Translations under genes and position numbers: made by a program
The notes under the pieces: model-generated
The model's input: the letters and a program-made list of their open reading frames with translations, nothing else
Database searches by the model: none
What the model was told of the DNA's origin: nothing
Shown here: positions 5,735 through 49,099 of the stretch, one piece after another
How positions within the stretch are numbered: the first letter of the stretch is position 1
How the letters are laid out: the number at the start of each line of letters is the position of its first letter
Source of the DNA: Axinella damicornis
Lineage: Eukaryota; Porifera; Demospongiae; Axinellida; Axinellidae
Reading direction: 5' to 3'
DNA: 64,000 nucleotides
Assembly (NCBI GenBank): GCA_963931865.1
Contig: OZ007506.1
Span: 19,379,853-19,443,852, forward strand

Positions 5735-5912
5735 GGTCAGTACAAGGTCGACAACGTGTATTGATAAGTATAAAGTGCGACGGGTTCACAACCTAGTGGC
5801 TCAAGCTAGTCCGGTTCCCCGGTTAGGTCTGGGAACCAGACTAGACAGAAAGTCTCGTTCGAAGGACACACTTGCCGGGGCCTGGGAACAAGGTTAGTTT
5901 GGCATCAATAAA

Positions 5913-10277: not shown

Positions 10278-12605
10278 TCAGAAAACTTGAATTCGATTAT
10301 TGCTAAAATCAGCAACAATAATATAGCCATCTTTGTTCACATGAACAGAACGAGGGCTCCGAAACTGAGCATTTACTTCTCCCTTGCGACCAAATGACCT
10401 TCCCTCAATACTGAACACAGATACGCGGTTCTTGACATTTTCCGTTACATATACTCTGTCACCATCGATGGCAACTCCTACTGGGTAAGATAGTTCTCCA
10501 GGACACATGCCTATACCGCTCAAGTACTGCCCCTCTGGAGTGAACACCTGAATGCGATGGTTGGAGTGGTCTGCTACATACACATTACCACTTCTATCAA
10601 AAGCAACATCGAAAGGAATATTGAACTGTCCATTTCCACTTCCTCTACTGCCAAAGCTGCGGTGAAGGGTTAGGTCCGTTCCTAAGACTTGTATTCTGTG
10701 GTTGTCGCGGTCACACACATACAGTTTGCGATTCTTCTTGTTGAAGCCAATGCCAAGAGGGAGGATGAACTGCAAGTGCTTACTTCCACGTGTGCCGACT
10801 GAAGCAACGAACTTCCCATCTGAGGAAAACTTCTGAATACGGTGGTTATTATATTCCACTATGTAGATGTTGTCATCGTCGTCAACAGTGACACCGGCAG
10901 GAGAGTTGAACTGTCCCTCTGTTGAACTACTACTTCCGCTGCCTAATGACTGAATCTTAACCCATTCTGGGGAGAAGATGGAGACACGGTGTCCTCCCCA
11001 CTCCGTAACAATAATCCGACCCTTGCTGTCAGTTGTCACACCAAACGGTTCGTCCAAATCTGGAAGGACTTTGACTGGATTCCCGAGATCTTGGAGATTA
11101 GGTCTGACAATGACAGCATGTGGACAGCCTTTGACAACCTTTCCGTTGATTTTAATGTACAGTTGATGTCTTCCTCTAGTGGTAGGCCGGTAGCTGACAG
11201 TGTGTGTGCTCTTCCCTTCCCTCTTGATGTCACATTTGATTGTGGTGCTGTCCCTAGTGTACACTAAGCTAGCACTGATATCCTGGAGTAGTGCATCACT
11301 TTCTCTGTCATCCTTGTTCCTAGCATGTAGTGTGACTATTGCTTCCTCTCCGACTGTTGCAGTTTTCAGACCATCTCCAGTGACAAAACTCTTACTGCAG
11401 CAAACCGGGTAAACTGCTACAATTTCAGCAAACCCTTGGCAGGATATTTGGAGGTCAACTGCATCATCTGCGACAAGGTGGATATCTGCCTCCTGTTGAG
11501 GAGCTAGTACGTCGGGTTTAAACTCGGCAGCAATCTGTTCAATCTGTTTGAGTACAGGGATTTTCAATGCCAGTATCTCTCCCTCACTGCCAGTTTTCAG
11601 ACTTCCCTCTACGTAATCCAGGCAGCTACTGAGCTGGGTCTGGATTAGCTCACACTGATCCCTCTGTGCGGCCAGGCCTTTGAGCTTCTGCTGTGTGTGT
11701 TGATGTAACTGGCCAATGAGCTCTGTTCTCCGCTGGTCAAGTGCTTGGTGCAGGCGCTCAATTTGTGTGTGGATGTCAGCTTCGATGGTCATCCTCTGGT
11801 CTTCTATTTCCTTTGTTCTGGTGTCCAGTGCCTGGATTGCATTGTTGACAGTGGCTAGCTGTTGTTTCACTGGCTGCAAACTTGAAACTATCTCCTCTTT
11901 GTGTTTTGGAAAGGTGTCGGTGACCAGGTCATAGTTGTGTCCCTGGTGGAGGCGTATGGTGCAGTCGTTGCATATGAGTTCTCCACAGGTCTCGCAGTAG
12001 ATCTTGAGCTTCTTTTGGACGTGCTTTGTGCAGTACATGACCTTCTTAGTTGGAGGGACAAGGTCGGCAGCCTCTTGCTGAATGTCGTTGAAGCTAGCTA
12101 TCTGGTGGTTGGATAATTCATCCCAGGACTGGTGGATTTCAGTGCACTTGGCACACACAAACTTGCCACAATCACGACAGTAGCCTGTCGCTGTGAATTT
12201 TTTGCATTTCTCACACTGTGTCTTTTGTGGCTCTTTCACCTTAGTCAGTGCGGCATGAATCTCAAATAAGTGGTTGATGTGGAATGCTGTCTGCAGTCCC
12301 GAGACCCCAGCAAGGGGTAGCAAGGTGGTTCGCCGACAATTGGGACAGCACAGGGTGTGTCCGTCACGATCCTTAACAACCAAACGTTCAAGACATATCT
12401 TGCAGAACGTATGGAAGCATGGCAGCAGCTTGGGGTTGGTGTAGGTATCAAGACAGACAGAGCATTCCAGCTGAGCTGTGATCTTCTTTAATGCTTCTTC
12501 CGCAACTTTTGGGGGCTCAGCCATCACCAATCTGTTGGTATGCACAGTTGCACAGTGATGTACATTTAATTGTATGAATGAGTCGTGCGACACCCTCCAA
12601 AACAA
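10278..12605 (-). CDS. TRIM-NHL protein (RING, two B-boxes, coiled coil, filamin repeat, six NHL repeats)
   Basis: This intronless gene encodes a probable cytosolic E3 ubiquitin ligase / RNA-binding regulator of the TRIM2/TRIM3/TRIM71 class. Numbered from the first Met: C3HC4 RING 48-90 (CSVCLDTYTNPKLLPCFHTF), B-box1 131-168 (CEKC..CRDC..CAKC), B-box2 192-223 (CTKH..CETC..CNDC), coiled coil about 235-345, filamin/Ig-like domain about 400-495 and six NHL blades from about 505 to 775, with motifs such as NNHRIQKF, DNHRIQVL and SNHRIQVF. The true start is probably Met28 (codon at 12524-12522, MAEPPKVAEEALKK), giving 748 aa; the first 27 residues look like translated 5' UTR. The protein ends directly after the last blade (NRIQVF), as is usual in the family. 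Target RNAs or substrates cannot be told from sequence. Confidence 0.93.
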   Translation of the reverse strand: MFWRVSHDSFIQLNVHHCATVHTNRLVMAEPPKVAEEALKKITAQLECSVCLDTYTNPKLLPCFHTFCKICLERLVVKDRDGHTLCCPNCRRTTLLPLAGVSGLQTAFHINHLFEIHAALTKVKEPQKTQCEKCKKFTATGYCRDCGKFVCAKCTEIHQSWDELSNHQIASFNDIQQEAADLVPPTKKVMYCTKHVQKKLKIYCETCGELICNDCTIRLHQGHNYDLVTDTFPKHKEEIVSSLQPVKQQLATVNNAIQALDTRTKEIEDQRMTIEADIHTQIERLHQALDQRRTELIGQLHQHTQQKLKGLAAQRDQCELIQTQLSSCLDYVEGSLKTGSEGEILALKIPVLKQIEQIAAEFKPDVLAPQQEADIHLVADDAVDLQISCQGFAEIVAVYPVCCSKSFVTGDGLKTATVGEEAIVTLHARNKDDRESDALLQDISASLVYTRDSTTIKCDIKREGKSTHTVSYRPTTRGRHQLYIKINGKVVKGCPHAVIVRPNLQDLGNPVKVLPDLDEPFGVTTDSKGRIIVTEWGGHRVSIFSPEWVKIQSLGSGSSSSTEGQFNSPAGVTVDDDDNIYIVEYNNHRIQKFSSDGKFVASVGTRGSKHLQFILPLGIGFNKKNRKLYVCDRDNHRIQVLGTDLTLHRSFGSRGSGNGQFNIPFDVAFDRSGNVYVADHSNHRIQVFTPEGQYLSGIGMCPGELSYPVGVAIDGDRVYVTENVKNRVSVFSIEGRSFGRKGEVNAQFRSPRSVHVNKDGYIIVADFSNNRIQVF

Positions 12606-13945
12606 TGGCTATGTTTAACTTTTATATCAAGTCTCGGACCACACACTATGAAACTGGAGCCTGCATAGTTGTATCAACCCTGCTGGGACATAGCACAGTA
12701 TAAAATCGATTGTCAATGCTTCAGGTCACGTTCGATTCCGAAAGGGGTGGAACAGAATAAGCTGCTTTGGCTTCGATCAAGCACGAAATAAATTCAGATT
12801 GAGAAACATCCAGTTCAAGTTTATGTTCAATTTTTGTGTCGAGTATGAGGTCTGTAAAACCTAATGGCTTACCTGCTTGAAGTGTTTTTCAGCAATTTTT
12901 GGACTGACTGCCCAATTCAAGGTAACAAATAATTGATCACACACTAGTCTGTTTCACAGAGTTAACTTGGCAGTACTCACCAAATTCATATGCTGGTTGC
13001 AGGAGTGGTTACCTCGAATTGCGCAAATTGGACAACTCAAACTGCTTTAACTCAAAACTAACACCAATTTGCTACATTGTAATGGCAAATGCACATTCCT
13101 GGTGGGCTACAATCAGTTAGTGTATTCATGAAAGCATGTGGTAGTCCCACTTTACCTTATTTGGTCAAGGTCAGTGATGAGTACTACCCAATCACATTCA
13201 CTACACTGTAAATGAAATCTGACAGCACACAGGAAATGGTGTATCAGAATTCTGACTACACTTTCGTACTACATAATGGCTATAGCTACATGTAGGAATA
13301 GGCATGCATGTGCAGTATAGCAAAATGCCTCACACACATGCTATATTGCCAGCTTATTAGTAGGCATGGAACTAAAGCTGCGAAGCTGAAGCCATGCAGG
13401 ATGCCAGGCTGCCTGCATCTTGTGCGTTATTTGATTATACTATTACGTAACTTCGTGTAATTATCTTTGATCATGTGATGCTTCTCGTGCCCTGTACTGC
13501 TGATTTGAGATTACAGATTGAAGCATGGAGAAATGAGAGCGTTTTGCAAATCCCACACATCTATAGCTGAATTCTGTACCTGTTGCCAGTTGCCAATCAG
13601 CTTAACAAGGTAGGCACGCTTCTGGTCGCCTCCACACTGGGGTCCATGTTGCTACATATGGAACAGTCACCTGCACAATATGACATGACCATTGAATAAC
13701 ACAGGCCATGCAGCCCTGCCCACTCCAAATTAATGTACAGAATCTTGAATTGATATAGTGTCGTGGCTCAGCCGCTGCAACCCTTCTGCAGACACTGTCA
13801 TCCCCAGCAGGCCCCAAGGAGTGCATGAATTTAAAAATTAAGTTGACGACATTCACTTGAGATCATAAAACTGAGGTGTGGCTAATGTCATAAATAACAG
13901 GAAATAGCTGGAAAAAGACAACAGTGATTCCTGATTATCAAGGTC

Positions 13946-31725: not shown

Positions 31726-34700
31726 TTAACTTTGGGAATCAGGGGGTTTGGACATCATTTGAGAATTCAGGTCGCTGGATGAACTTGCAGTACTTATCTG
31801 AGCTGCATAATGAGGATGAGGAGCTCCAGTGAACGATGGTTGGGTAGTTGTTTGTGCCGTGGTGGGGATGCCTCCCATGTTTTCAGGCTGATGAGAAGGA
31901 GGACGATGAGGATGAGGAGCTCCAGTGAAGGATGGTTGGGAAGTTGTTTGTGCCGTGGTGGGGATGACTCCTATGCTTTCAGGCTGATGAGGAGGACGAG
32001 GATGAGGAGCTCCAGTGAAGGATGGTTGGGTAGTTGTTTGCGCCGTGGTGGGGATTACGATCTGGACTCCTATGTTTTCAGGCTGATGATGAGGAGGGGC
32101 TCCAGTGAAGGATGGTTGGGCAGTTGTTTGCGCCGTGGTGGGGATTACGGTCTGGACTCCTATGCTTTCAGGCTGATGATGAGGAGGAACCCCAGCGAAG
32201 GATGGTTGGGCAGTTGTTTGTGCTGTGGTTGGGATTACGATCTGGACTCCTACGCTTTCAGGCTGATGCACAGTTACACCAGGAGCCGTAGAGTACTGGG
32301 CATTGGCATTCGTAGCTCTCAAGGCCTGAGAGTAAAGCGGTTTGCAAGGTTGGCTTGGCTGTTGTGAGGTTGCTGGTAACAGTGGTGCTAGAGTGGCAGG
32401 GACGGGCTCGGGAGGATGAACAGCAGCAGCATCTCGAGTGGTTGAAAGCAGGAACTCCGAATCCGCGGAGGCCAAGAAGTGCTGTGATAGGTCATTTGTT
32501 CTCTCCAAATCAACATCCATCTCCAATCCAATCACTTCAGACACAGGCTCCAGCTCAGATGATGAACTAATTCCAGTAGACCCAGTATAAACACCTGTTG
32601 TGCCTGATAGCGAACTGTGTCTACTGCCACTGTTTTCACTCGCCACGCTTGACTGGCTTGACTGACCCACCAATTGGGGTGGGTGAGAAACCTGCTGCTG
32701 GACATTTGAATCAACACGAACAATAGCTGTGATCGGGGGGGAAACCACTCTATTGGGCTGGGTGTCATTAGCAGGCTCATCAGTGGGGTAGGGTGGAGCG
32801 ACTTTCTCGATCAAGACACTTCCATGGCCTTCATTCCCAATCTTCTTCTCAACGTCAATGCCATCTTCTCTCACATAGCTCCCTCCTCCTCCTCCTCCCC
32901 GCCCTCCACCTCCTCCAGAGTATCCACCTCCACCGCCTCCACCGTACACTCCCACGGCTCCTCCTCCACCAAACCCACCATACTGCCCAGCATCGCCACC
33001 GCTAAGGAAGCTGCGTGCCGAGGACGCATTCTGCAAGAAACCAGCACCACCATATCCCCAACAGGGCCCAACAAAATTGGAGGAATTTGCATCTTCTCCA
33101 GGGCCTCCATCAACCCCACCTTTTCCGTGCTCGTGACCACGACCATCCGTGCCTGAGGGTTCCAGGCTAGCATCGCAACCATTCTCGTCTCGATCATCAA
33201 AGCCACGAGTACCACCTCCCCCACCAGCTGCAATGAGCAGGTTGTCCTTGTTGATTTCGTTCACAGCGATAAACGTTCCTCCTCCTCCCCCTGTGTTGCA
33301 GTACTGCAACTCAGACATGCCGCCACACAAGACGATGAGGAGTTCCCCAGCCTTGAGCGAGAACACTGCAGATATGATGGCACCACAACCACCAAAACAC
33401 CTCTGCCCATCCTTGGCCTTGGCACCACTGGCAGTGATCCGGTAGTAGCCATTCTGGGGGATCCGGATACGGTGGATCTTCTTGGTGTACCCAAGGTTGA
33501 AAGGGAAATCCTCACAAGAGCTTATCACCTGGTTGCTCCACATTCCCAGCCCAGCCGCATTTGAAGAACGGATTCGGAATCGGTACGAGTATCCGGGACA
33601 GAGGTAGCTGATGTAGGCTTTGAGAACATTCCCTGGGATCTCAATGCAATGGGGCTCGGTATCGTGGTAACTCGTGTCAACCACACCACTTCCTCTCCAG
33701 CCAACGTTCTGTTTGTTCGGCAGATACTCGTACTCAACCTGGTAGTGCAACACATCGCCGCACTTGGGAGGAAGTTGCCAATCGAGTCGCATCAGATTGC
33801 CCCACTCTCCGGAGGGTTGGCATTCAATCTCGGTGGGAGTCGGCCCTCCCCCGACCGCCCCCAGGACACGCAACTCAAGCAGGATGTCCTTGGGCACATA
33901 GAATGGGATGTCTTGGTGTGCAACGGGTCGATACAGACTCTTGTCATCATCTCGAAGCAAATTTTCCATCCTCTCCACAACCACTTGGTATTTGAGCAGA
34001 AACTCGACGTCAGACTTGGGGAGAAGCGTGTTGAGGTCCTCGTGGGCATCAACAAACTCTCGTGTTGCCTGCTGGACTTTCTGCAGCTGTTTCTCAAGGT
34101 TGTGCTGCCGATGAGTGCACTGGAAGGAAGAGGGGAAACATGATCAACAACCAACTAACGGGACAACAGTTGTGCTGAAAAAGTGTATGAATCTTTGTCA
34201 CACAATTTACTATTACCCCAGCTCTATTGAGTTTGTCTGCGGGAAAAAGTCTTCCTGCAAATATGTAGTTGATAATCGTGAGGAGTTCCCCTTTGAATGT
34301 TACACATTCAAATGAATTTTCAGATCTCAGAACATTTGTGCATGTTACTGGCACCAATATCTAATTAGTAGCAGTCATGAGGATGTCTGAAGCCGCGTCT
34401 GCTACTAACGATGACCCTACTAGAGAATCTACCAGTAGTTTTCATCAGAACAGTTTGATGAATCCTAGTCATAACAAGTGCACGCACGGACCCAGTGCAC
34501 GTTCGTGACAAAGGCCAGGGGATAAGTAATTACCCCTTGAGTTCAAGCCGAGACAGCAGTCATTTCTAGATACATTCGTGATTTGAGGAAAGTGTCCTGA
34601 TGGTTGGGGACCAAAGTGGATTGCACAACAAGGTGTGCCTGGATCTTCTTCCAACTGCTGTGGTACATGGAAGGCAACAGATTCCAAGGCTACAAGGTTC

Positions 34701-37700
34701 CAACTGCAATGTTCATGTTCCGCAAACACAAAGGTTCATGTGCTAAAGTATACCTGTAATTCTCAGCCAAATGCTAAAAGAAGATCAGCCATTTTGTCAC
34801 TGCTGATCATCAGTATCTTACAATCTGGCAAAAAGCTGAGCAGTCAGATAGCATAGGTGGGAAGCTGAACCAGACTGTGACCCGACTGTGTGTGAGGCGT
34901 GAGAGCCTGCATGACCAAGGATGAAATACGGAGTTGAATACTGCAGGAAAATGATAGTCCAATCTGTGAAGCCTGTAGTCTCAGTACCAGATGGATGCCC
35001 TGTACCAAACCCTTCTTACACATGCAAGGTTCTGGAAGTCCAGTACAATGTAAACGCTAGTGCTGGCCTCCGTGGTTTAGTATGTACACTATGGTATACC
35101 AACGCCATTGAACTAAAATAAATTATGAGAGAGTGAATTTGTGAGGAGGGGGGAGGGGGACATTTTTGTCTTCCCATGTGGCCACCATTGCAGGTATAGC
35201 TTCATACCCAGGCCCCGCCCCACTCAAAAAAAGGGCCTGGTATCTACTGTTAGCACATGCATGTAATTATATCGGGCAAGATGATGAAGGGAGAGGGACA
35301 TATGCACGACGTAGCTACGTGCTGATGATATGATGCTCCACCAGAACAAGATCGATCGAGCCAGGATATCACCAGAACTACACGACAAGTAGCGATATAC
35401 TGCCCTGGATTGCTAGCAACTCTTGCATCCATGACAAACATCGTGAGCCGTGCAAATGCCTTACTTTCAGAAATGCAGGCTACGTGTTCTGGCTGGAAAC
35501 ACGTACATGTACAGGAGCAAGAGCGCATGATGACATCACTGTTTTTTCACGGTGGAGGAGGAAGAGCGTGTGACTGGCAAAAATTTGAAACAGGCGGAAT
35601 CTCTGGCATGTACTAAAAATAGAACACGTGAGCTCAACACGTTGGCTTCATCACGGATATCACGCACTGTACTCGTAGTAAAGTTGCTAGCTAGCTGTAA
35701 ATGGAGCGCTCAGCGCTCACCTTGCGAAGTCTGCGTTCTCACAGCCATTATCGACACAAAGCAATTCGTTCTGCGTTCTACCCGAGCCTGAAAGTCGGAC
35801 GGGGAGAAACGGTGGATGATTGTTTGCTCCACGAAGTACTTTGAAGTTGAAAGGGGTGATATTGACCCAGTTCTATCTCTGACTGATAGTCCTCTGGCTC
35901 GAGATCGACTATTTTGCAGCTGTACCGTTTCTCACGCTCTGTTCTGACCCGCAATCTAGATACAACGTGACCGGATGTGCTATTTTTAGTACACGCGAAA
36001 GATTCTGTTTTCACCACGAGAGAATACGAAGTCACACGCTCTTCCTCCTCCGCAACAATGATGTCATCATGCGCTCTTGACAGGAGTACTTAGCCATTGA
36101 AGGTCACAAGAGAGAGCGCTCAATCGTCCAACTCCATCGTTGCTCGGGAAAGTTGTACAGACCATATTGCGATATAGTACACGATTTGGACGTTGTAGTT
36201 GCACAGTAGTCCACGGGAAATTAAACACATGCACAAACAGTGGATACCAGGCCAGTTCTTTATTCGGGCGGGGCCTGGGTATGAGGCTAGAGTCCGTATC
36301 ACCATGCAATCTTCTCTGTACGTGTCTGGCATATCTCGTTCACTGTTATAGTATACCAAGTTGCACTAGGCGTTCGCATGATCTTACTACTTGCAGTGGA
36401 TAACCTTTCAAATATAAAGTCGGACAATGTCATGTGCAGCTCAAACAATATCAATGTGAAAATCAGGTGTCTAAGGATATACTGAGTGACTTCACTCTTC
36501 TTTATCTGTCTTCAGATGGGCTAGTTGCATGTGACTCCCTCACGCTGGTTTTTGGCACAAGACTTTCCAGTTTTAGCTGGTTCCGAAAGCCGTACTTCCA
36601 TTGATGTCACTTCATGTGTCCACCCACAGAGCTACTATGGAATGCAAGGCACTCAGTGTCTGCTGTGGATTCTGTGGAAGTGATTTTCTTCACATGACTT
36701 CCTGGAAGCCACACATACCCGCTATCATAATTCCCTCCCACACTATCCAACATGAATATGACAATCACTCCAGCTCCTGTAACACCTTTGCATAGAGGTA
36801 GCATTAATTCCCATTTTAGCAAACCACATTTCATTCTCAAAACAAGAATGCAGAAGTCCTTTTTATCCTCCAGCTTGCTGCTCTTGAGTTCCTAGCTAAC
36901 TAATTCTGTACGCCTGCCAGTGCATGCCGTCATTGTGTAGCAGTACTCTACACAGGGTAGCCATCACACCATGTGACTGACCACAGCACAATCTCAGACT
37001 ACAGAGCTTATCATAATATTATATGAAGTACACACACATGCACAACACAGAAACAGGCCGATTCTCGTAAGAAACCTTCCGGTTTGTGGTGAAGCTGAGC
37101 TGCAAACAAATGCTGGAAAAGCGTTCCAAGTCTCGGCGTCATAAAGACAGGTATCGTATGATTTAATACGTTCTGCACAATGATCCAGCACCCAATGTAC
37201 ACGACAAGCATGTGTACGTACACAATTTACACAGACTAGCGTGAAGGAAAATACTTCCAAGTCCTTTCAGCCAAGGGCTGGTCTCCCAAGGGGAGGAGGG
37301 GTAAAGAAAGCACTTTACCTGCGAAGCAACAGGTGGGTTTTGAACCTGGGACTTTTGGTCCACAGTTGAATGTTTCAACCACTTGATTGTAAGATAGTCA
37401 CACATAGGGCTTTGGTCAGGCTCATCCCAGTCACCAATGCAGGACACAAGTTAACCATAATTAATGCAAATGAGGTGGAACTTTAGAGAACTTTAGAGCA
37501 GGAAGTTGGAGGAAGTTCATGCATTCGTTGCCATGGTAGCACTTGTTCCAACTGTAGAACTTACCATGGCAACACAACAGGTGACAGGATGATGTCACAT
37601 GATAATTTGATTGTTCCTAAGGCTGCTAGTTCTAATTATCCTCTCTCTTGATCAGTGGATAGCTCTTGAAAATGAAAAACGGAATCCAATATTAAGCTAC

Positions 37701-40700
37701 TGTGCACCATGGAGGACCAGACTGCTAGCTACAGCTGCAGCACACGCCAGCTACAGCTGCAGCACACGCCAGCTACAGTAGCAGCACACGCCAGCTATAC
37801 AGTAGCAGCACACGCCAGCTGCAGTAGCAGCACCCGCCAGCTACAGTAGCAGCACACGCCAGCTGCAGTAGCAGCACACACCAGCTACAGTAGCAGCACC
37901 CGCCAGCTACAGTAGCAGCACACGCCAGCTGCAGTAGCAGCACACGCCAGCTACAGTAGCAGCACCCGCCAGCTACAGTAGCAGCACACGCCAGCTGCAG
38001 TAGCAGCATACGCCAGCTGCAGTAGCAGCACACGCCAGCTACAGTAGCAGCACACGCCAGCTACAGTAGCAGCACCCGCCAGCTGCAGTAGCAGCACACG
38101 CCAGCTGCAGTAGCAGCACACGCCAGCTACAGTAGCAGCATACACCAGCGACCAGCTGCAGCATACGCCAGCTGCAGTAGCAGCATATGTTAGCAGCATG
38201 GAGTATTTTTTAAGGTGATCCTTGGGGTCAATAGGCTACTAGGTTTAATGGCTATGCAGCCACAACACATACTGTGGCAATTCTACTTCATGGTATGTGC
38301 TTACCAAAGGTTTCTCATTAGAGGAGCCTGTGTACTAGCTACCTGCACCAGAGACACCTAATTTGTGCCCTTACATGTTAAGTAGTTCCTATCAACTAGT
38401 AGGCTCACAGGTAACTGGAAACTAATTTCTAAATCCTGCAATAGGTGGGCTTTCACAATAAACGGAGGCGTCTCAAGTGCCCATGCAGTCTGATGTTAAG
38501 GCTCTGTGACGCTTCACCAACAGGAAATTGCTGTTCTAAAAGTCACCAGTTACGTAAGAGACAATGTTACAATATCTATCTACCCCCCCCCCCCCCCCCT
38601 TTATACATCCACCCTGCTGCCCAGAGGGGGAGCACAGAGATTAGGCTGCCATTATCAAAACCGTCTCTGTAATGTACACCTCCATCGTTATCCACAATGG
38701 GGAGCCACAGATAGCAAGGAGTCATTCCAAACTAGGGAACAGGAAAGGCTATAGATGGAGCTGGTAGGTACGGTAGCATTCACCGTTGGATCCCTGCCAT
38801 AGTATAGTGTGTACAGCAGAACCTGGTCATTGTTTATGGCAGCCACCTCGCTGGTCTCTAGTATGATCACTACTGCTGGTCCCAGTTGCATCAGCTCTGT
38901 ACAAAACAACTTGCTAAAGCAGCCACCTGGCCCAAAATACTGGTCCCATGGGTTGACCACCATAGACAGCTTCCACTGTATGACGCACGCAGGAACCCAA
39001 TCAGGCAGAGGTAAATTTGAATATCCAGATGGACTCCAGTTCAAAGGTCACAGCAAGGTACTGCTATCATATCATCACAATGCCCATGAATTACACTGTC
39101 CAAAATGATTAATGGTACAGTACACTGGACAATGGGTATCCATTACACCCTTTCAGGTCATAGTGGAGTATCCCTAGTACCTTTTCACTGGCTTGCCAAT
39201 ATACTGTACAATGGTTGCACTAGGAGTCACAATAGTACAGGAGCCACAATGCTTACGCGCATATCTCACTAAATCTCTCATCGGATAATTTTTTTCACTT
39301 TCTTGTCCGTAGACATAAGAGTCACAATAATACAGGAAGCCACAATGCCACATTTCTAAGAACACTGTTGCAGTGTCTCACTCCACCTTATTTCTTAAAG
39401 TCAGCGACAAGAAACCGGCATTCAATCAAAGGCACACCATACATTAGGAATAGGACGGTGCACGCGTTTCCAATCCAGTCCCTTGTGCTCCACGGTGCAA
39501 TACATAATTATCGAGTGGCACCTTCAAGAAGTGAGTTGGTACACAGAATTCAAAATCTACCCAGGAAGGTCTATAATGGGGGCTATACGGTATAAGTATG
39601 AACGATTGAGGCACTTTGTGCTCTCATAGGCCCACTGTGAAGCATGTAGGGTACCATAAGTTGAGGAAATACGTATGCAACTTACTTCGTCTTCAACGTA
39701 TTTGAGGAGGCTCTGTTGACGCTCCTGGATGATGTCCATCACCTCCCCAAACGTTTTCTGAATCTGGGATTTGGCAGAGCTCGCTGAGGGTCCCAGCTCA
39801 TGGATGATCGTGGATAGGGACCTGTTCGAGCCCGTCAGCCTATCAATGACATCCCGGCTGTACTGGTTCAACTTTTGAGTCTGTGTCCTCAATCGTCTCA
39901 CAGCTTCGTGAAGTGGTTCGAACTGGGGTCCTCGGGAGACCCAGTCTTGGCTCATTTTGCATTCGTCACACGCAAACTGACTCAGGCTTACAGAGTAGAG
40001 TGTTGCGCTGTTGTTGCGGTGCACAGTACAGATGATATGAGCAGGCGGGGGGTTGTCAATCGGAAATCGCCTGTGCCGACGAACCGGTGCAAAGGGACGG
40101 TCGTGTTCACTGCAGTCGCACGTTTCACAGAACACAAACTGTGACCCCGGAGAGCAATCAAGACACACAACCGAGGCCGGTCTTTCGTTGCAAGCATCAC
40201 ATTTAGGTTGCCTTGCTTCTTGGTTCTCAACTGGTTCAACGTAGTCTTTAACTATCTCCATGACGGCATAGTTTGGTGGGAGCTGCGACACGTCCGGACG
40301 CTCAAGATTGTGCCACATGCTGCATACAGGGCACTTGATGCCCCTCGTTGTCATAATCCTGAAGAGACATTTCGTACAGAAGGTGTGGCCGCATCTCAGA
40401 CTTCTTGGGTTGTGGTCAAAGAATTGGCTGTACTGCTCGACACAGATGCTGCACTCTAGAGCAAGGCTTTGCTGACTCTGAAAAGAGGGACATACGCCTG
40501 TCAACATTATCTCCATTTACAGTCAGTAGTGATGGCCACGGCAGTAGCTATGCGAGCCGCTAGCTTAACTGGAACATACACACTGGAAAGACTTTGGGCA
40601 CGGGGCTACTACTTCACTACTAATAAGAGTCCCTACTACAAGCCTCTGCTACCATTTGTATTCCCCTCTTAGGCCAGCATAGGTTGGCTTCCTCAAAAAC

Positions 40701-40903
40701 TATTGTCAGCTCATACTCATGCCCCCCCCCCCCCCCCCCCCCCCCCAACACACACACACACACACACACACATACATACACACTCACATATAAACTAGTT
40801 CAGTATTTAAAAACACAGCCTACTTCTGTTCACTCACCGGTGGCGGTTGCAGCGTTAACGGTGGATGGACCGGGGGGTCCGGTGACGGCGATTGCGTGGT
40901 CAT
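31726..40903 (-). CDS. RING/B-box/coiled-coil protein with FN3, ALK/LTK-type glycine-rich domain and PST repeats (1083 aa), paralog 1
   Basis: Exons 40903-40838 (MTTQSPSPDP...), 40477-39686 and 34119-31726 join at GT-AG sites in phase 0 (3252 nt). Domains: C3HC4 RING 31-74 (CSICVEQ..RCGHTFCTKC..CPVC), B-box-like zinc sites 115-157 and 172-195, coiled coil about 200-345, fibronectin III about 381-488 (ending RFRIRSSNAAGLGMWS), glycine-rich domain about 499-726 with LLIVLCGGM, GGGGGTFIAV, LLIAAGGGGGTRG, GGFGGGGAVGVYGGGGGGGY and NEGHGSVLI, the order found in the ALK/LTK glycine-rich module. The 727-1083 tail is Pro/Ser/Thr-rich with five repeats of about 25-32 aa (IPTTAQTTxQPSFTGAP). There is no signal peptide or membrane helix, so it is probably an intracellular E3 ligase (inference). 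Its function is unknown. Confidence 0.88.
31810..32275 (-). repeat. Coding tandem repeats (five units of about 75-100 bp) in paralog 1
   Basis: On the minus strand the units read PES(I/V)GVQxVIPTTAQTTAQP followed by SFTGAPxHHQ. Each contains the plus-strand words GATGGTTGGG(C/T)AGTTGTTTG and TTTCAGGCTGATGA. Units nearer the C-terminus have lost VQIV and gained PHPHRPP. This is length-variable, probably disordered sequence. Confidence 0.85.
35518..36079. mobile_element. Inverted-repeat element with CAAGAGCGCATGATGACATCA ends and 7-bp duplication
   Basis: The ends CAAGAGCGCATGATGACATC and GATGTCATCATGCGCTCTTG are exact inverted repeats, continuing (with gaps) through GGAGGAGGAAGAGCGTGTGACT. 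ACAGGAG flanks both sides (35511-35517 and 36080-36086). The element is 562 bp and non-coding. It sits in intron 2 of the TRIM-like paralog 1. A 65-bp relative lies at 46271-46335. Confidence 0.85.
37727..38188. repeat. 22-bp minisatellite, about 21 copies
   Basis: The unit is CAGCT(A/G)CAGTAGCAGCACACGC. Variants ACACC and ACCCG alternate in a higher-order pattern. Because 22 is not divisible by 3, all frames cycle, and the Cys/Leu/Ala-rich open frames seen on the minus strand are artefacts. It is located in intron 2 of TRIM-like paralog 1. Confidence 0.9.
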
Positions 40904-41150
40904 CCTTCGCTTTTCCTAGCTCTAAATGTAACTGAACGACAGAAAGAACATTCTAATAGCTGCTCCTTCCCAGCCACTTATATCGCCGAGAACTGAGACC
41001 TCGAGGGCGAGTTAGTTAGAAATTCCTGACAAACCCGACACACTCATGCCTTTCCTCAACTTGTGCGCATGCGTGCTAAACTAGCACGTGTTATCACGTG
41101 ATCACTATTTCGGACTCACGTGCTTATTCAGTATGCAATGCAATAATATT

Positions 41151-41156
41151 TTTATT
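41151..41156 (-). terminator. Possible poly(A) signal for TRIM-like paralog 2
   Basis: AATAAA on the minus strand, about 250 bases past the stop at 41409. Confidence 0.4.
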
Positions 41157-41176
41157 ATGCAATATTATGCGCATTT

Positions 41177-41234
41177 TAGCCTCGTACCCAGGCTAGGCCC
41201 TCACGTTCCGCGTGAGGGCCTGGGTACGAGGCTA
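41177..41234. mobile_element. Hairpin element (TAGCCTCGTACCCAGG ends), 58 bp
   Basis: TAGCCTCGTACCCAGGC and its complement enclose a second stem CCCTCACG/CGTGAGGG. It is an almost perfect palindrome between the two TRIM-like paralogs and belongs to the abundant CTAGCCTCG family. Confidence 0.85.
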
Positions 41235-41408
41235 TATGCATTTACTGTATATGCAGCTCAATTTTCTGTTACATGTTAGCGAACTCATTGCATTTCTGCT
41301 GTCTTGGAAGGTCGTATAATTATGCATGCCTTTCAGCGAAACAATGATTATGTACAGTCCACTATTACCAGTACTGCAAAAGAATTGTGTACAAAAGTTA
41401 TCAAAACT

Positions 41409-44400
41409 CTAGATTTCAGTAATGACACGGACAATTGTCACAGAACCATGGTCTTCGTTGCCCAAACTCCTCTTCTCATCAACCCCCAGGCCTTCCTTCA
41501 CATAGCATCCTCCCCCTCCCCCTCCACGCCCACCACCTCCTCCTGAGTATCCCCCTCCACCACCTCCACCATAATAACCAACAGCTCCTCCTCCACCAAA
41601 TCCACCACTGTCACCGGGCTCGCCACCGTGCAAAAATGACTTTGCTGTACTTGACGCACTATCAAATCCTGCCCCTCCCCACCCCCAGCAAGGCCCAGCA
41701 AACATAGCATCCTTCCCAGCTCCTCCTCCAGCGCCACCTGCTGCCCACTGTGATCCAAGTCCATCTGTTCCTGCGTCTGAGTGGATATTAGCATCCCGGC
41801 CATCGTGATCTTCAGCATCGTATCCCCTTGTCCCTCCTCCTCCCCCAGCTGCAATCAGTAGCTCTTTTCGCTTGTTCAGGGCCACAAAAGTGCCCCCCGC
41901 TCCACCTGAACTGGCGCCAACTTTCCTAGACATTCCTCCACAGAGAACGATCAGTGTGTCATACCTATCAGGAAACGGAAGAGTAAAGATGAAGTGTGTG
42001 CCCCTATTGGCACATATGCTTATAGGCAACCCTCTCAGCAAAAACCAACCATCTTGGTTGTTAAATTATGTGCGTTCAAACTTCAGAATTTGAAAGAGTA
42101 GGGACCCACGGATAGGAAAAAGGAGAGAAAGGAGGGAAGAGGAGGGGGAGGGGATGAAAGAACGCGTAAGCGAAAGCATGAAGGGTATCAACATGACTAT
42201 GAGGTATTGGACATAAGCATCACCTGCCGAGATGAAACTTGGCTTCGATGATTGCTCCCCTTCCTCCCTTGCGGGTATCCCCGTCAGCCGCCTTGGCCCC
42301 CCTCGCTGTGATGCTGTAGTACCCGTCAGAAGGAATTTGGATACTTAGGATCTCACCAGTGTAGCCGATCTCGAGAGGAAAGTCGGGGGTCTGTCCCACC
42401 ACCGCAGAACTCCAAATGCCCCAGCCAGCACTGTTGAGGGAACGGATACGGCAGCAATACTTTTTCCCCGGAATAAGGTTGTCGATTCTTTTATTGGAAA
42501 CGCGCCCCTTAATGCTGATTGAGCGAGGAAAGCTGTGCTTGTACTGGATGTAGGTGTAGCTGGCCATTGTGATTGCATCGACATCCTCCTCTTCCATCAG
42601 CTCCACACGGATCTCATACTCTTGGGTCGGTTGGTCTTTCTTGTCCGAGTGTTCCCACGTCATCATCAAGAGGCCATTATCTGCTATGCACTGCAGTTTC
42701 ACCGGAACCCTCCCTCCCCCAACCATCCCCAAGTTGTCAATTTCCTGCAGAAATGCAGGGTTGATGTTAATGGGGATGCTACCATTTGTTACCGGCCCCT
42801 TGTAGAGAGGGAATTCCACATCTGCAAGCTGTGAACGCATGTTTTCAACGATTCGTTCAGCTTGGTGGAGGTAGCTGTAGTCGGACATCTGCAGTAGCAT
42901 GTTTGCCTGGACGATTGCAGTGTCTGCGGCTCCTTGAGCCACTTCAAGCTTCTCTTGCTGCTCCGTCAGTTTCTTCTTCTGGAACTGGGCCTGAGGCGTA
43001 AGAGGAAAAGATGGACATAAACTCAAACTCTCTCTCTGTTCTCAAACCACAACCGGAAGAGAGCTGGAGAATCTTGTCAACTGTGGGAACGATCCCAGGT
43101 ACACTGTTAGTGACCATAACTCTTAACAGACCTCCTGACTGCCCAATTCACAGCCCACAGTACCACACCCTCCCTCCCTCCCTCCCACCTATCAAGTGCC
43201 ACACCCTCCCTCCCTCCCACCTATCAAGTGCCACTCCCTGCCTCCCTCCCTCCCACCTATCAAGTGCCACAGTCAAAGATACTTCTCAAACAGCTTTGAG
43301 CATTGGGTTTAAATTCCATGCACTCAGGAAGCAAAATTCCTCTGAGGTTATTACCTTGTGCATGCACATGCAGCATGCATCTGTGTCTATCTGTCTGTCT
43401 GTCTGTCTGTCAGCTAAAATATATTGTTCAAGCAGGTTAGCTAAGGTGACCTATCTGCAATTAATAAGGAGGCAGCCGTTGTGGTTCGCTGGCTCCACCC
43501 ATTTTTAACTCATAATTATGTTGAGATCATTTGCCATGCGCCAGGTGCCAAGGCTCAACACGTGGGTGGAGTGTATAAGTACTAGGGACACGCATATTAT
43601 GCGGGAATTTCTTTGGGAATAATAGGCGGAAGTTTTGAAAAAATAATAATGGGCACGTTTCCGCATGATATGACGTCATGGCATCATCACGTGAGCTAGA
43701 TTGCAGCGATCGACGTGACCTCGTGGCTCGCTCGACGATATATCGTGGTAAAGATGGATGCAGATGCCACAGGCACGGCTAGCGCTAGCAGCACAGCTGG
43801 CGCCAGTAGTAGCTATGACTCTGAGAGTGAGTCTTCTACCTGCCCGTCGTGCCCGAGTCTCTTGGAAAAACTGCGAGCTCCACGGCCATCTGACCTAGGG
43901 CGAAAACGGAGAATACACGCGAACCCACCAGTCGGGAAGAAGTGGTCTTTGTATTTTACCGAGTAATAATGACAACTTTTTCGTGGAATAAAATTGGGGA
44001 AAAATAAAAAGAATAATGGGATCACCTTTGGGAATTCGGGAATAGAATAATGGGCAAAGTTTGGAGCATAATTGGCCTGTCCCTAATAAGTACTATACAA
44101 GTGTCTGAAGTATGCAGACTGTGATCCTCTGTCCTATGCCTTTTTCCATATATGGAGAGAAACTAACCTCAAGGTCATGTGGGATGCTGTGGTTACATGG
44201 GGACAATCACAATGGTACTAGTACTGTACAACAGCAAGTCTGACATCATGAAGCCATTTCCGTTCATTGTCAAGAGAAGATTGGAATGCTGATTACCATA
44301 CAGAAGCCAGTCTATGGGTGGTTGCAGTAAGAATAATGAGAAGTGGAAAGCGCTCAGAGTAGTTCAGGGAATAGATTCTGATCTAGGGTATACACAATGC

Positions 44401-47400
44401 ACATTGTGAGTAGTAATGCCAAGCCAAGTCAATCGCAGCCTGCCTGGCAGTGGTGAGCACATTGCTTTTCTGTCACTGTGTTTCATGCAGAGGAGACTGT
44501 TCTCTGTGTGACAGGCCTAAGATCGTTTTTATTGCTATGGGCTGGAGTACAGATCTATCCCATCAGATGTTCACAAGCTCACTGTCTTGCACCTAACACT
44601 AGTTCACCGGACATTCTGAGTGGAGTACATACACCTGTTCCTAAGCATTCACGCATCATGGATGACAAGATTCAACTAGACCATGCCAACTTCTCCAATT
44701 ACAATTTATTTCCTGCCTAGACAAATCAGTTGTGCTTTTACTTCCTGTCTAAGGGCCAAATGCAGCCCTCTCAGTCTGGTTGTGTGTGGTCTGGGGGGGA
44801 GTCTGTAAACACTGGACTGGACTGGACTGGACTGGAATACTGGAATGACCTTTGAACCCCAAAAGTGATGTAATTTCAAGGGAAATTATGCAGAAGTTGA
44901 CGCTATGAACTGTACGGTGGCTATGGACTGTATGGAGGACAATCTGTCTCAATCTGGCGTAGCAGGGTCAGCCCGAGATAATCCCATCACCATAGATGAC
45001 GACTCAGAGTGTGAGTCTCTGGTCAAAAGGGCTGAATACTACCGGTAAGTTGTACTTGAAACTTGACGCTTTTGCTAAAGTAAACTACGACATGTAGTTA
45101 GCTGTGTGGTGATGTAGTCATACGCATACTCAAACATACCCTACAGCATTACAAGTAGGATGACTACATCACCACATAGCTAACTACATGTACTTAGCAA
45201 AAGCGTCAAGTACAACTTACCGGTAGTATTCGGCCCTTTTGCTGATTTTACCGGAGACTCACACTCTGAGTCGTCATCTATGGTGATGGGATTATCTCGG
45301 GCTGACCCTGCTATGCCAGATTGAGGCGGATTGTCCTCCATACAGTCCATAGCCACCGTACAGTTCATAGCATCAACTTCTACCTAATTTCCCTTGAAAT
45401 TACATCATTTTGGGGGGTCAAAGGTCATTCCAGTATTTCAGTCCAGTCCAGTCCAGTCCAGTCCAGTGTTTACAGACTCCCGGTCTGGGGTCAGACTGGG
45501 GAGGGGGGTATGAGCTAGGGGGAGGGAAGGAGGAGGGAGGGAGGGAGGGAGGGAGGGAAGGAGGAGGGAGGGAGGGAGGGAGGGAGGGAGGGAGGGAGGG
45601 AGGGAGGGAGGGAGGGAGGGAGGGAGGGAGGGAGGGAGGGAGGGAGGGAGGGAGGGAGGGAGGGGGAGGGGGAGGGGGAGGGAGGGAGGGGGAGGGGGAG
45701 GGAGGGAGGGGGAGGGGGAGGGAGGGAGGGGGAGGGGGAGGGAGGGAGAGGGAGGGAGAGGGAGGGGGGAGGGAGGGGGAGGGGGAGGGAGGGGGAGGGG
45801 GAGGGGGAGGGAGGGAGGGGGGGAGGGAGGGGGAGGGCGGGGGAGGGAGGGAGGGGGAGGGGGAGGGGGAGGGAGGGAGGGAGGGGGGGGGGATACTTCT
45901 TAAAGAGAATTATCCCCTGCTAAATAAGGTACATTTATCTGCTGATCTGAGCAGACACTCCACCTGCATGGTCTCTCTCACCTCATCCTCCACCTGTGCA
46001 AGGACCTGAGAGAGCCTCTTCTTCAGACACACCTCAAACTGGTTGAACTCGACCCGAACAAAGTCTAACGTCCGAGTCTGGGGGAAGGGAGGAAGGCGTG
46101 GAGATGTAAGGGAGGAGAGGTGGTGGCAAATCCATCTCATGTGTGAAGCTATCTCAGTGTACCGACCTGTGGTCTTATGACGTGCCCCAACTGCATCAAA
46201 ATCATTCATTACACATGGGTTGCTAGTGCATACCTCCATGTGTAAAAGGGAAAGGGCAGTTCATGTATGGCAAGAGCGCATGATGACATCATTGTCATTT
46301 TGGCGGAATGGCAATGATGTCATCATGCACTCTTGTGTATGGTAGAGATCGATTGAGCTACCAACTGTGAATCAGGGCTCTAACAACTGGCTAATTTCCC
46401 TGCGATTGTAATTTGCACAAGTAATCGAGTACTTATTGAGGAACGGCACTATAGTCACCAGTGGCACTCACCTCTACCTGTACACAGCAAAAATCACTTC
46501 ACTGAGTCAGTGACATTACAATATTTCTTGCATGTCTACTAGCCAAGAGAGTCAGCTTTACTCCAAAGCATGATTAGAGTGTTTGAACAAGAAATGTATG
46601 ACAGTAGTCAACTGCCTCAGGCCAATACTCCAAACCCCATCTTTTACTATGTACACCGCTTGTGGACACAGTGTCTAGGGTGGTGATTGAATGAATTGAA
46701 CCCCATGCCACTCACATTACCACAGCCACATACTCTCTACCATGTATGGTTACCATATTGCGTGCCATTTGTAGACTACAGGCTGTGAATGGTTCAACGT
46801 TTGAGTGCATGTTTGGTACACACTCGAAACGTGCGTCCTGCACACAGTGGATGACTCCATGGTAACACCTAGGCTAGGAAACTAAGGGAAGATTAGGTCA
46901 CTGACTTTTTTATACAGCTGTAAAATAGGCTAGAGTGGGTGGTTGATATCGTCAACGGACGTGTGAACATATTTCTATATCACTGAGCAGCTCAAGCATA
47001 GCACAAGGCAGTAACTAGCCTCGTTCCCAGGCCGCGTGGCCTGGGAACGAGGCTAGGCAGTATCATAATGTGCACAACTGATCTTGTGCACCAGACCTTC
47101 ATACAGAAAAGGGTGGCTGGACTAATCAGATACATATGACATCATCTGCATGATCATATATGATGTCATTTGCACAGTGCATTCCACAGGCATAACTAGT
47201 ATAGTGGAAGCTGACCAGATCGTCCTCTTTCATGCGAGGGCCTGGCACGTAAGACTAGCATCAGAGGTACTGCGCTGAGGTTCTACCCACTGACATAGTC
47301 TCGCAAGCAAGCAATAAATACTACAGAGGGGATGGGAATAATACGTCCACTCGGTACACCAGGTTTCCATACCAGCATCCTCTTTCACTAACCACACACG

Positions 47401-49099
47401 GGCCATGAAGACTCTGACCGGCTGCCACCACAAACTGCCCAACTAGGGAATCGATGGCATTGAGATCGTTTAGGTGTGTCATTTGCTAGGTCGTTTATGC
47501 TAAGACAGGTGACAGGAGAAACTCCACAGACGTCCACAGAAGAGATATATGCATAGCCTTGTTCAGGGCCTCCGCCCAGAGCCATGGAGAAATCCTGATT
47601 TGTCTCCACGGCTGTGAGTGGGCGGAGGCCTGGGAATGAGGCTAATTCACGCATACTTGCAACATAATCACATGATTACAGCAATTTCATTGGCTCTGTT
47701 GAGATTCTGGCGGATGGAATGGAAACCTGGTATAGCTGACCAGATGTATTCTAGTCTAGCCGCTAGCCCCTCTCCGCCCGGCCGGTCAAGCGGGCTTGAC
47801 CGGCCAGGCGGAGAGGGGCTAGCGGCTAGACTGGATGTATTCTTATTCACTCCATCAGGAAAAAAAGACGATTGGTCCGCAAGACTACCACTACCACTAG
47901 CACCGACAGACAAAGTACAACCATAACTAACTAGAGGTGCTCAGCAGAGCACGTACCCCGTGCGCAACTTTGACTTGACAGCTATAAGCTTAGGCCTACC
48001 ACCGATTATTCATACAGCATGCACGATGAGCTAGCTAGGCCACGATTATCAGCATGCATATGCAGAATGAGATACCGTAAGTTGTGGCAGTAATGTTAGA
48101 AATAGGGTGTGGTCAAGTTGTATAAATTAGAAGCACATGAAGCACGACTTTCACGCAGCTTTTCTCGGCCTCTCGAGTAGATCTCTGGTCTGTGAGTTAC
48201 GTAGATGCTAGTATTTTCTGAATTCTGACACTTCTATCCTGAAATAAGCCTTCAACAAGGCCTTCACTGCTCAAACCGCTCTACATCTATGGACAGACTG
48301 ACAGGACAGACTGACAGACAAACCAATCACTCTACCCCCTGCTGCGCATGCGCACGGGGTAATTATGCATACGGTTGCCATGCCAGCACAGGTACAAACT
48401 GTCCCTTGCACAGACCTTCTCACTGTCCACTCGTCCCAGGAGCTCCTCTAGTTCCGCTCTCGTGTGCGAGATGTCATCCACACGGTCGCGAGTCAGCTGA
48501 ATGAGGCCTGGCACCTCGTCCCGAATCTGAGACACCGCATCGTCAATCGGAACGTACTTATCTTCCTTGAAATTGCGTTCTTCTTTACACACCTCGCACC
48601 CAAACTGGTTCACTTCAAACGAAAAGAAGAGACAGGCCTTTCCGGGATGTATGGAGCAGTTGGGGACAGGAGTCGTAAACCGGACACTTGCAATCGGCTT
48701 CGGATGATGCTCTCTCACCGGCCCAAACGAGCGGTTGTGCTCCTTAGTAGAACAGCTGTCGCAAAATTTGAATCCAGCTGGAAGGCACTGGAAGCAGATA
48801 AGAGTGGCTACGTTCTGTTGGCAATCCTGGCAGATTGCCCGCTGGGGAGCGGGGACCTGATGGACAATTCGCTCATGCTTCACATTCTGTGCGTCCACAT
48901 AGTTCATAATGGTGATGTTGGGAACATGGGGTTCAGCGCTGACGAGGGAACATTGGGGGCACTCCAGTCGGTCGCCCGCTTTAGGCTTTAAACCGTCAAG
49001 GCACTTCTGGCAGAAGGTGTGTCCACATCCGCTGAGAAGCCTCGGCTGGAATTCCCCAGTAGTGGTATACTCACCCTGGCACAGTGGGCAGGTAAGCAT
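41409..49099 (-). CDS. RING/B-box/coiled-coil protein with FN3 and ALK/LTK-type glycine-rich domain (700 aa), paralog 2
   Basis: Exons 49099-48416, 46077-45982, 42990-42224 and 41964-41409 join at GT-AG sites with consistent phase (2103 nt, 701 codons with stop). Domains: RING 4-50 (CPLCQ..GCGHTFCQKC..CPQC), B-box-like zinc sites 90-131 (CQDC..CFQC..CDSC) and 148-171, coiled coil about 180-330 (ending VEDE/AQFQKKKLTEQQEKLE), FN3 about 355-453 (YCCRIRSLNSAGWGIWS), glycine-rich domain about 474-695 (LIVLCGGMSRK, LLIAAGGGGGTRG, FGGGGAVGYYGGGGGGGYSG). It stops right after the glycine-rich domain, so the Pro/Ser/Thr tail of paralog 1 is absent. Met1 was chosen because the RING begins three residues later. 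An in-frame AG acceptor at 49139-49140 means an upstream exon is possible. It is divergent from OSCP1. Confidence 0.87.
43583..44085. mobile_element. hAT-like element with 8-bp duplication and N-terminal transposase remnant
   Basis: The ends TAGGGACACGCATATTATGC and GCATAATTGGCCTGTCCCTA are inverted repeats, flanked on both sides by the 8-mer ATAAGTAC (43575-43582, 44086-44093). The plus strand carries an open frame from about 43754 to 43966 (MDADATGTAS..., then CPSCPSLLEKLRAP and RKRRIHANPPVGKK), which looks like the start of a transposase or host-derived protein cut short. It lies in intron 3 of TRIM-like paralog 2. Confidence 0.8.
44771..45498. repeat. Large inverted duplication carrying an exon-like segment in each arm
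   Basis: Arms of about 340 bp are reverse complements around a loop near 45121-45160. The matched pair GGGAGTCTGTAAAC (44797-44810) and GTTTACAGACTCCC (45468-45481) fixes the symmetry. Each arm holds ATG-started sequence MNCTVAMDCMEDN..., then GSARDNPITIDDDSECES, followed by a strong splice-donor-like CCG/GTAAGT (45044/45045 on plus; mirrored near 45222 on minus). Short CTGGA repeats lie at the outer ends. It is in intron 2 of TRIM-like paralog 2. Confidence 0.85.
45500..45894. repeat. Polypurine (GGGA)n/(GGGGGA)n tract, about 395 bp
   Basis: This is almost pure G/A on the plus strand: mostly GGGA tetramers, then GGGGGA units. It is capable of triplex or G-quadruplex structure. On the transcribed strand of TRIM-like paralog 2 it is (TCCC)n, starting 88 bases after the exon 46077-45982 donor. 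The glycine-rich reading frame across it is an artefact. Confidence 0.9.
46271..46335. mobile_element. 65-bp miniature of the CAAGAGCGCATGATGACATCA family
   Basis: CAAGAGCGCATGATGACATCATTG and its near-complement enclose about 17 bases. TGTATGG flanks both sides (46264-46270, 46336-46342), again 7 bp, as for the 562-bp relative at 35518-36079. It is in intron 1 of TRIM-like paralog 2. Confidence 0.85.
47016..47055. mobile_element. Minimal hairpin of the CTAGCCTCG family
   Basis: TAGCCTCGTTCCCAGGCC plus its complement with a 4-base centre. GGCAGTA occurs just outside each end (offset by two bases on the left), suggesting a short target duplication. Confidence 0.8.
47554..47644. mobile_element. 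CTAGCCTCG-family element, 91 bp
   Basis: TAGCCTTGTTCAGGGCCTCCGCC pairs with GGCGGAGGCCTGGGAATGAGGCTA. It lies in intron 1 of TRIM-like paralog 2. Confidence 0.7.
47752..47833. mobile_element. Mutator-like miniature element, 82 bp, 9-bp duplication
   Basis: TAGTCTAGCCGCTAGCCCCTCTCCGCC pairs with GGCGGAGAGGGGCTAGCGGCTAGACTG. GATGTATTC flanks both sides (47743-47751, 47834-47842). A 9-bp duplication is typical of Mutator-type elements. A relative is at 61819-62003. Confidence 0.8.
48085..48375. repeat. Dispersed repeat (GGTGCCACGAGAGCC family), copy C
   Basis: This shares AATGTTAGAAA(C/T)AGGGTGTGGTCAAGTTGTATAA at its left and the GACAGACTGACAGACAAACCA tract plus CATGCGCACGGGGTAATTATG at its right with 28590-28885. 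The middle part is different or lost. Confidence 0.55.

Follow-up and report, generated by a model that had tools for sequence, protein, structure and literature searches.

A predicted ALK/LTK-type glycine-rich domain in a pair of probable TRIM-type proteins of the sponge Axinella damicornis

Can a fold best known as the ectodomain of a cell-surface receptor serve inside the cell as the partner-binding end of a ubiquitin ligase? The question is raised by two adjoining genes, here called A and B, on the minus strand of a 64,000-nucleotide stretch of the demosponge Axinella damicornis (contig OZ007506.1; 'the window', G000:C2:19379853-19443852, where G000 is a 226-Mb assembly of 120 contigs to which all C-numbers refer). 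Their predicted products carry a RING, B-boxes, a coiled coil and a fibronectin type III (FN3) domain, followed by a TNF-like plus glycine-rich (TG) domain of the type found in the receptors ALK and LTK. Both kinds of component are already known; the combination of TRIM and TG is new, and a literature search conducted mostly outside subscription journals returned no protein in which a TRIM or RING part is joined to an ALK-type glycine-rich domain, judged by titles and the openings of abstracts among the matches listed. A and B are probably paralogous intracellular TRIM-type RING ubiquitin ligases whose TG domain would hold one conserved endogenous partner for ubiquitination.

The genes are separated by about 0.9 kb from the stop codon of B to the start codon of A, and every element that a preliminary description had placed here was recovered in its place. 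Gene A consists of two exons (1074 residues) and gene B of four (700 residues). All introns are of the GT-AG type, and A and B are considered paralogous because both have a phase 0 intron directly after the residues VEDE. The joining of RING and TG exons in one protein is supported by homology. A database search gave 403 matches, and all figures taken from it cover the 120 matches listed. Three of these (P0095, P0099 and P0110) contain the RING pattern, each with the whole architecture in one frame. P0110, which bears a EukProt/TRINITY name, has RING and FN3 domains by Pfam and a TG domain evident from alignments; it runs in order through exon 1 (142-401) and exon 2 (404-825) of gene A, and through exons 1 (142-361), 3 (404-645) and 4 (646-822) of gene B, leaving the 32-residue exon 2 of gene B unmatched. 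P0095 is a 759-residue frame (longest contig 2669 bases) and most simply represents a spliced message.

Both products have the N-terminal RING, at least one B-box and the coiled coil of a TRIM protein; an intact B-box2, which is not needed in every TRIM, is absent. The RING and FN3 domains noted earlier score above the Pfam cut-offs in both genes (zf-RING_UBOX 35.2 bits in A and 37.1 in B; fn3 27.8 and 30.7), and by sequence the closest solved RINGs belong to TRIM32 and TRIM23, followed by RNF4 and TRIM2. Among the 58 members of alignment A2, fn3 is matched at E<=0.01 in 55 and zf-RING_UBOX in five, the remaining frames being without a RING exon. Two B-box-like zinc sites had also been described. 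B-box1 holds up, with all eight zinc ligands in six of six aligned full or nearly full members, whereas B-box2 is degenerate and retains only C,H,C,C ligands in the same six, enough for one zinc site. The Pfam model zf-B_box reaches 17.9 bits in B, below its cut-off of 24.1, and has no listed match in A. The proposed coiled coil after the B-boxes is borne out by long helices in both AlphaFold2 (AF2) models, on which the assignment is based; TRIM_CC matches weakly (one of the 58 A2 members at E<=0.01). A further helix, COS-like by position, is predicted between coiled coil and FN3 in the gene A model.

The glycine-rich part is less readily recognized by existing profiles. The Pfam model ALK_LTK_GRD (PF12810), named in the preliminary description as a check, gives a divided answer: it reaches 12.2 bits in gene A against a cut-off of 24.5 (profile 6-203 of 243), has no listed match in exon 4 of gene B, and among the full-length relatives fails its cut-off in P0095 (9.8) and P0099 (17.5), with P0110 not listed; it passes in three of ten relatives scanned (P0008 28.1, P0098 27.8, P0108 28.6) and at E<=0.01 in 29 of the 58 A2 members, two of the 58 being RING exons that cannot match. 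A profile built from seven other family members scores 357 bits on A and 293 bits on B. Since these values far exceed the reversed A sequence (20.6) and the highest score (-18.4) among 400 shuffles that preserve composition, the TG domain does not reflect chance glycine composition.

The predicted fold, TNF-like plus glycine-lattice, is that of ALK/LTK (PDB 7nx1, 7lrz, 7nx4), in agreement with the earlier proposal. Foldseek matched ALK/LTK in the PDB with an E-value of 1.0e-11, and predicted viral proteins (BFVD) with lower values, 1.4e-18 and 3.9e-14, from libraries that differ in size. It is important to point out that 'ALK-type' denotes the nearest solved structures and does not imply closest ancestry. 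Several of the BFVD phage proteins carry the name 'receptor protein-tyrosine kinase', seemingly on account of their ALK-type glycine-rich fold; this is probably an annotation artefact. In the whole genome, PF12810 found nothing at E<=0.001, as in 14 control genomes, and at E<=10 gene A (12.7 bits) together with an incomplete match of 19 bits, containing one stop, on C5, the model being too insensitive here to decide on the presence or absence of a separate ALK-like receptor.

ALK and LTK, the layout of whose TG domain is given in the accessible part of PMC10605310, bind cytokines through this domain according to PDB titles. They possess a transmembrane helix and a kinase, whereas the Pfam scan of the A and B exons contains no kinase and only one hydropathy peak exceeds 1.6, on the TG strands of the gene A product; no N-terminal hydrophobic stretch was seen by hydropathy, no dedicated signal-peptide or membrane predictor having been used. 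By eye, the cysteines of LTK/ALK do not align with the conserved cysteines of the family, and an acidic loop typical of the family is missing from the alignment rows of LTK and ALK (7mzy). The other relevant system is class I TRIM proteins (MID1/MID2), laid out in the accessible part of PMC10526110 as RING, B-boxes, coiled coil, COS box, FN3 and PRY-SPRY. The order is identical through FN3 in A and B, and a relative from the demosponge Dysidea avara is named Midline-1-like. In contrast, A and B carry TG at the C-terminal side where class I members carry PRY-SPRY, their B-box2 is reduced to four ligands and a COS box is not demonstrated. No SPRY is listed for the A and B exons, and the genome's 20 SPRY matches all lie outside the window.

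Prediction or homology shows the architecture, the joined exons, the fold, the conservation and the two recognisable copies in the genome; E3 activity, dimerisation, a cytosolic location, a substrate-binding role, calcium binding and class I-like descent are inferred. The coiled coil would dimerise the protein and the RING would recruit an E2, while the TG domain at the C-terminal side, helped by FN3, would hold a partner for ubiquitination by the RING. SPRY, NHL and other C-terminal domains of TRIM proteins bind partners, and partner binding is the simplest reading of TG because of this analogy. The partner would be one conserved endogenous molecule, possibly bound with calcium. If true, the TRIM superfamily would gain a further class of C-terminal domain, and a domain known best as the cytokine-binding ectodomain of receptors would sit in an enzyme that is probably intracellular, opening the question of TG binding partners outside ALK/LTK signalling. 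The low-copy gene pair would suit functional work in sponges, and the half B-box2 and the acidic loop are testable structural differences.

An endogenous partner is favoured over variable non-self ligands because the TG domain and its acidic loop are conserved and the copy number is low. In six full or nearly full proteins, mean pairwise identity (without glycine in brackets) is 59% (48%) for TG, 47% (49%) for B-box1, 41% (42%; 10 pairs) for the RING, 34% (32%) for FN3 and 24% (25%) for the coiled coil; once glycine is excluded, TG thus ties with B-box1. In a 99-sequence alignment, which mixes paralogues and therefore does not test selection, the mean entropy of non-glycine columns is lowest in TG among the four regions compared (1.65 bits; COS-like 2.08, FN3 2.17, coiled coil 2.46). 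The acidic loop follows a 'GTRG' segment and has the signature x-D-[ED]-x-D-x-[DN]-G-x-[DN]-A-[SN]-L-[ED]. The anchor occurs in 128 of the 141 sequences examined; 93 of these 128 match [DEN]x[DN]x[DN]Gx[DN] and 26 a shorter form, with the central Asp in 127 and the Gly in all 128. Calcium-binding loops follow the pattern DxDxDG with an acidic twelfth position, and from its resemblance to them the loop may bind calcium. Homology searches of the genome with gene A exon 2, the domain alone and P0110, in which the best first-look candidates were scored, recovered at least two confident TG loci, A and B; a third convincing locus was not found, the five weaker matches of the domain-alone query (E 0.006 or worse) being short or interrupted by stops.

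These results bear on the earlier interpretation. That the glycine-rich fold became the recognition domain of an E3 is well supported, whereas a role in immunity or allorecognition is not well supported, given the conserved TG domain and its two copies. In such a non-self sensor, which we regard as unlikely, TG would recognise microbial or allogeneic ligands much as the TNF-like/glycine-rich tips of phage fibres recognise receptors of their host, and the TRIM part would trigger degradation or signalling. Many TRIM proteins act in immunity. One parallel is gp24, the tail fibre of the myocyanophage Pam3, whose TNF-like and glycine-rich domain is likened by its authors to C. elegans ALK (7LIR); in the accessible part of the source it is a trimeric phage fibre proposed to recognise the host, its stem conserved, its tip hypervariable and no RING described, and it is by description that it resembles A and B (PMC9608196). 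Variable loops in TG keep this alternative alive: 39 of 238 positions exceed an entropy of 2.6 bits, and the runs 247-250, 278-281 and 353-358 (residues of the exon 2 frame) could form such a tip. P0021, P0023 and P0024 share one longest-contig size, which suggests local duplicates elsewhere. Against a sensor stand the presence of two recognisable copies in the genome and the position of TG as the least variable of the four regions.

It also seems improbable that the TG domain mainly self-associates or scaffolds, giving rise to higher-order TRIM assemblies and compensating for the missing half of B-box2. B-box2 aids assembly in other TRIMs, and its reduction to four ligands throughout the six members, together with the long low-complexity tail of gene A, would fit this idea; the TG domain of ALK/LTK is chiefly a ligand-binding part, as PDB titles also indicate, which speaks against it. 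The Pam3 fibre with the same fold is a trimer, though mostly via helices, in the accessible part of PMC9608196. A further view, which we hold to be quite doubtful, is that the ancestral ALK-type TG domain of early animals was a calcium-modulated ligand pocket of an intracellular TRIM ligase, and that ALK/LTK later used the module outside cells; A and B would then encode intracellular receptors in which ligand binding is turned into ubiquitination, as we know it from no other TG domain. That the RING exons and the FN3-TG exons are separate genes might be argued from the 5.6-kb intron of gene A and from the 117 of 120 listed matches without a RING pattern, but it is highly improbable in view of the single-frame proteins, one of them transcript-named and running through both loci in order, and of exon ends that, in both genes, meet at VEDE in phase 0. 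The sub-threshold ALK_LTK_GRD scores notwithstanding, a simple low-complexity glycine stretch merely resembling ALK has practically no standing against the family profile scores.

Where did the TRIM part come from? The RING exon of gene A as query found 68 places in the genome, including A and B, and the next best after B (C9:7800242-7800958, E 1.2e-16) belongs to a locus termed L021. The 9 kb read there (G000:C9:7794000-7803000) contains a RING-like stretch, two B-box stretches and, on the strand they share, a frame with FN3 and seemingly a long low-complexity insert; the RING scores 24.6 against a Pfam cut-off of 25.2, and the two frames are taken as one gene from strand and distance. No glycine-rich domain was found in these 9 kb, the C-terminal end of the gene lying beyond them. 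The descent of A and B from a class I-like RING-B-box-FN3 TRIM is only a suggestion from such sequence likeness. The window's only other match to the RING exon is a TRIM with RING, B-boxes, filamin and NHL repeats by Pfam (10278-12608, minus strand), to which one copy on C6 is similar by eye. Dozens of RING/B-box matches cluster on C6, C14, C3 and C9, chiefly at 10.4-14.8 Mb of C6, many with open frames of about 740-760 codons; this C6-centred set probably reflects a large expansion within the lineage, and for immune diversification it is a stronger candidate than A and B.

Several points weigh against the ligase reading or its parts. In both A and B the last RING cysteine is followed by Ser, at a position that often holds a 'linchpin' residue. 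One 19-residue window of gene A, on strands of the TG model, has a mean hydropathy of 2.02, above the customary threshold of 1.6 for membrane helices (peaks in the other four proteins are 1.13-1.53). The acidic loop matches neither form in nine of the 128 anchor-bearing members, and that of gene B is off-pattern in having Ala as its first and His as its twelfth residue. Class I descent depends on a single locus, L021, from a single query; L021 is not listed with the P0110 query, where NHL-type TRIM places on C6 rank next. Finally, the glycine-lattice domain could be structural instead of substrate-binding.

A quick tree of domain cores (139 of 141, without P0118 and P0140) puts A and B in separate groups. 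B and P0110 are long branches, flagged as such by the program, and the claim is limited to the pair not looking like a recent duplication. An organism is given for two relatives, both from D. avara, which are also among the 43 proteins found in a profile search with A4. A search with residues 1-360 of P0099 returned P0099 alone among 1796 candidates and missed even its D. avara neighbour P0080, a sign of poor sensitivity. The TG profile A3 confirmed none of 600 stretches matching the seed pattern in viral contigs, where seeds were narrow, and one locus among at least 584 stretches in prokaryote genomes (38% across query residues 11-91). With seed patterns this narrow, a recent transfer of TG from microbes is unsupported by these comparisons rather than refuted.

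Table 1. Features of genes A and B (window positions).
Feature	Positions	Strand	Content or basis
Gene A exon 1	39686..40516	-	ATG at 40516; RING, B-box1, half B-box2, coiled-coil start; splice donor GTAAGT
Gene A RING finger	40322..40453	-	Pfam RING models above cut-off; PDB TRIM32 RING E 5.5e-10
Gene A B-box1, 8/8 zinc ligands	40073..40201	-	Ligand alignment
Gene A degenerate B-box2, C,H,C,C ligands only	39959..40030	-	Ligand alignment
Gene A exon 2	31726..34119	-	Coiled-coil end, COS-like helix, FN3, TG, Ser/Thr/Pro/Gln-rich tail, stop
Gene A FN3 domain	33508..33855	-	
Gene A predicted ALK/LTK-type TG domain	32803..33507	-	
Gene A acidic loop within TG, EF-hand-like pattern	33160..33195	-	Family-wide motif
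Gene A low-complexity C-terminal tail	31729..32802	-	About 4 tandem 90-bp repeats
Gene B exon 1	48416..49099	-	RING 48950-49090, B-box1 48707-48832, half B-box2 48587-48658, coiled-coil start
Gene B exon 2	45982..46077	-	Coiled coil to VEDE, phase 0; placed via splice sites and alignment to A
Gene B exon 3	42224..42990	-	Coiled-coil end, FN3 (42382-42723, Pfam fn3 30.7 bits), TG start
Gene B exon 4	41409..41964	-	Remaining TG, then stop immediately

Exon 4 of gene B is 63% identical to gene A across query residues 267-449. For the exon 3/4 junction of gene B, a GC-AG splice and an in-frame extension were both considered and dropped in favour of the GT-AG junction, which preserves the length seen in gene A. 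The tail of gene A beyond TG (about 350 residues) has no counterpart in B. The intron of gene A contains a 22-bp minisatellite of 20.7 copies (window 37727-38185), and the second intron of gene B a GGGA-type repeat of 97 copies (window 45520-45893). Elsewhere in the window lie two neighbouring, convergent single-frame phosphofructokinase genes, at 429-2816 on the plus strand and 3260-5785 on the minus strand (PFK 639 and 634.5 bits).
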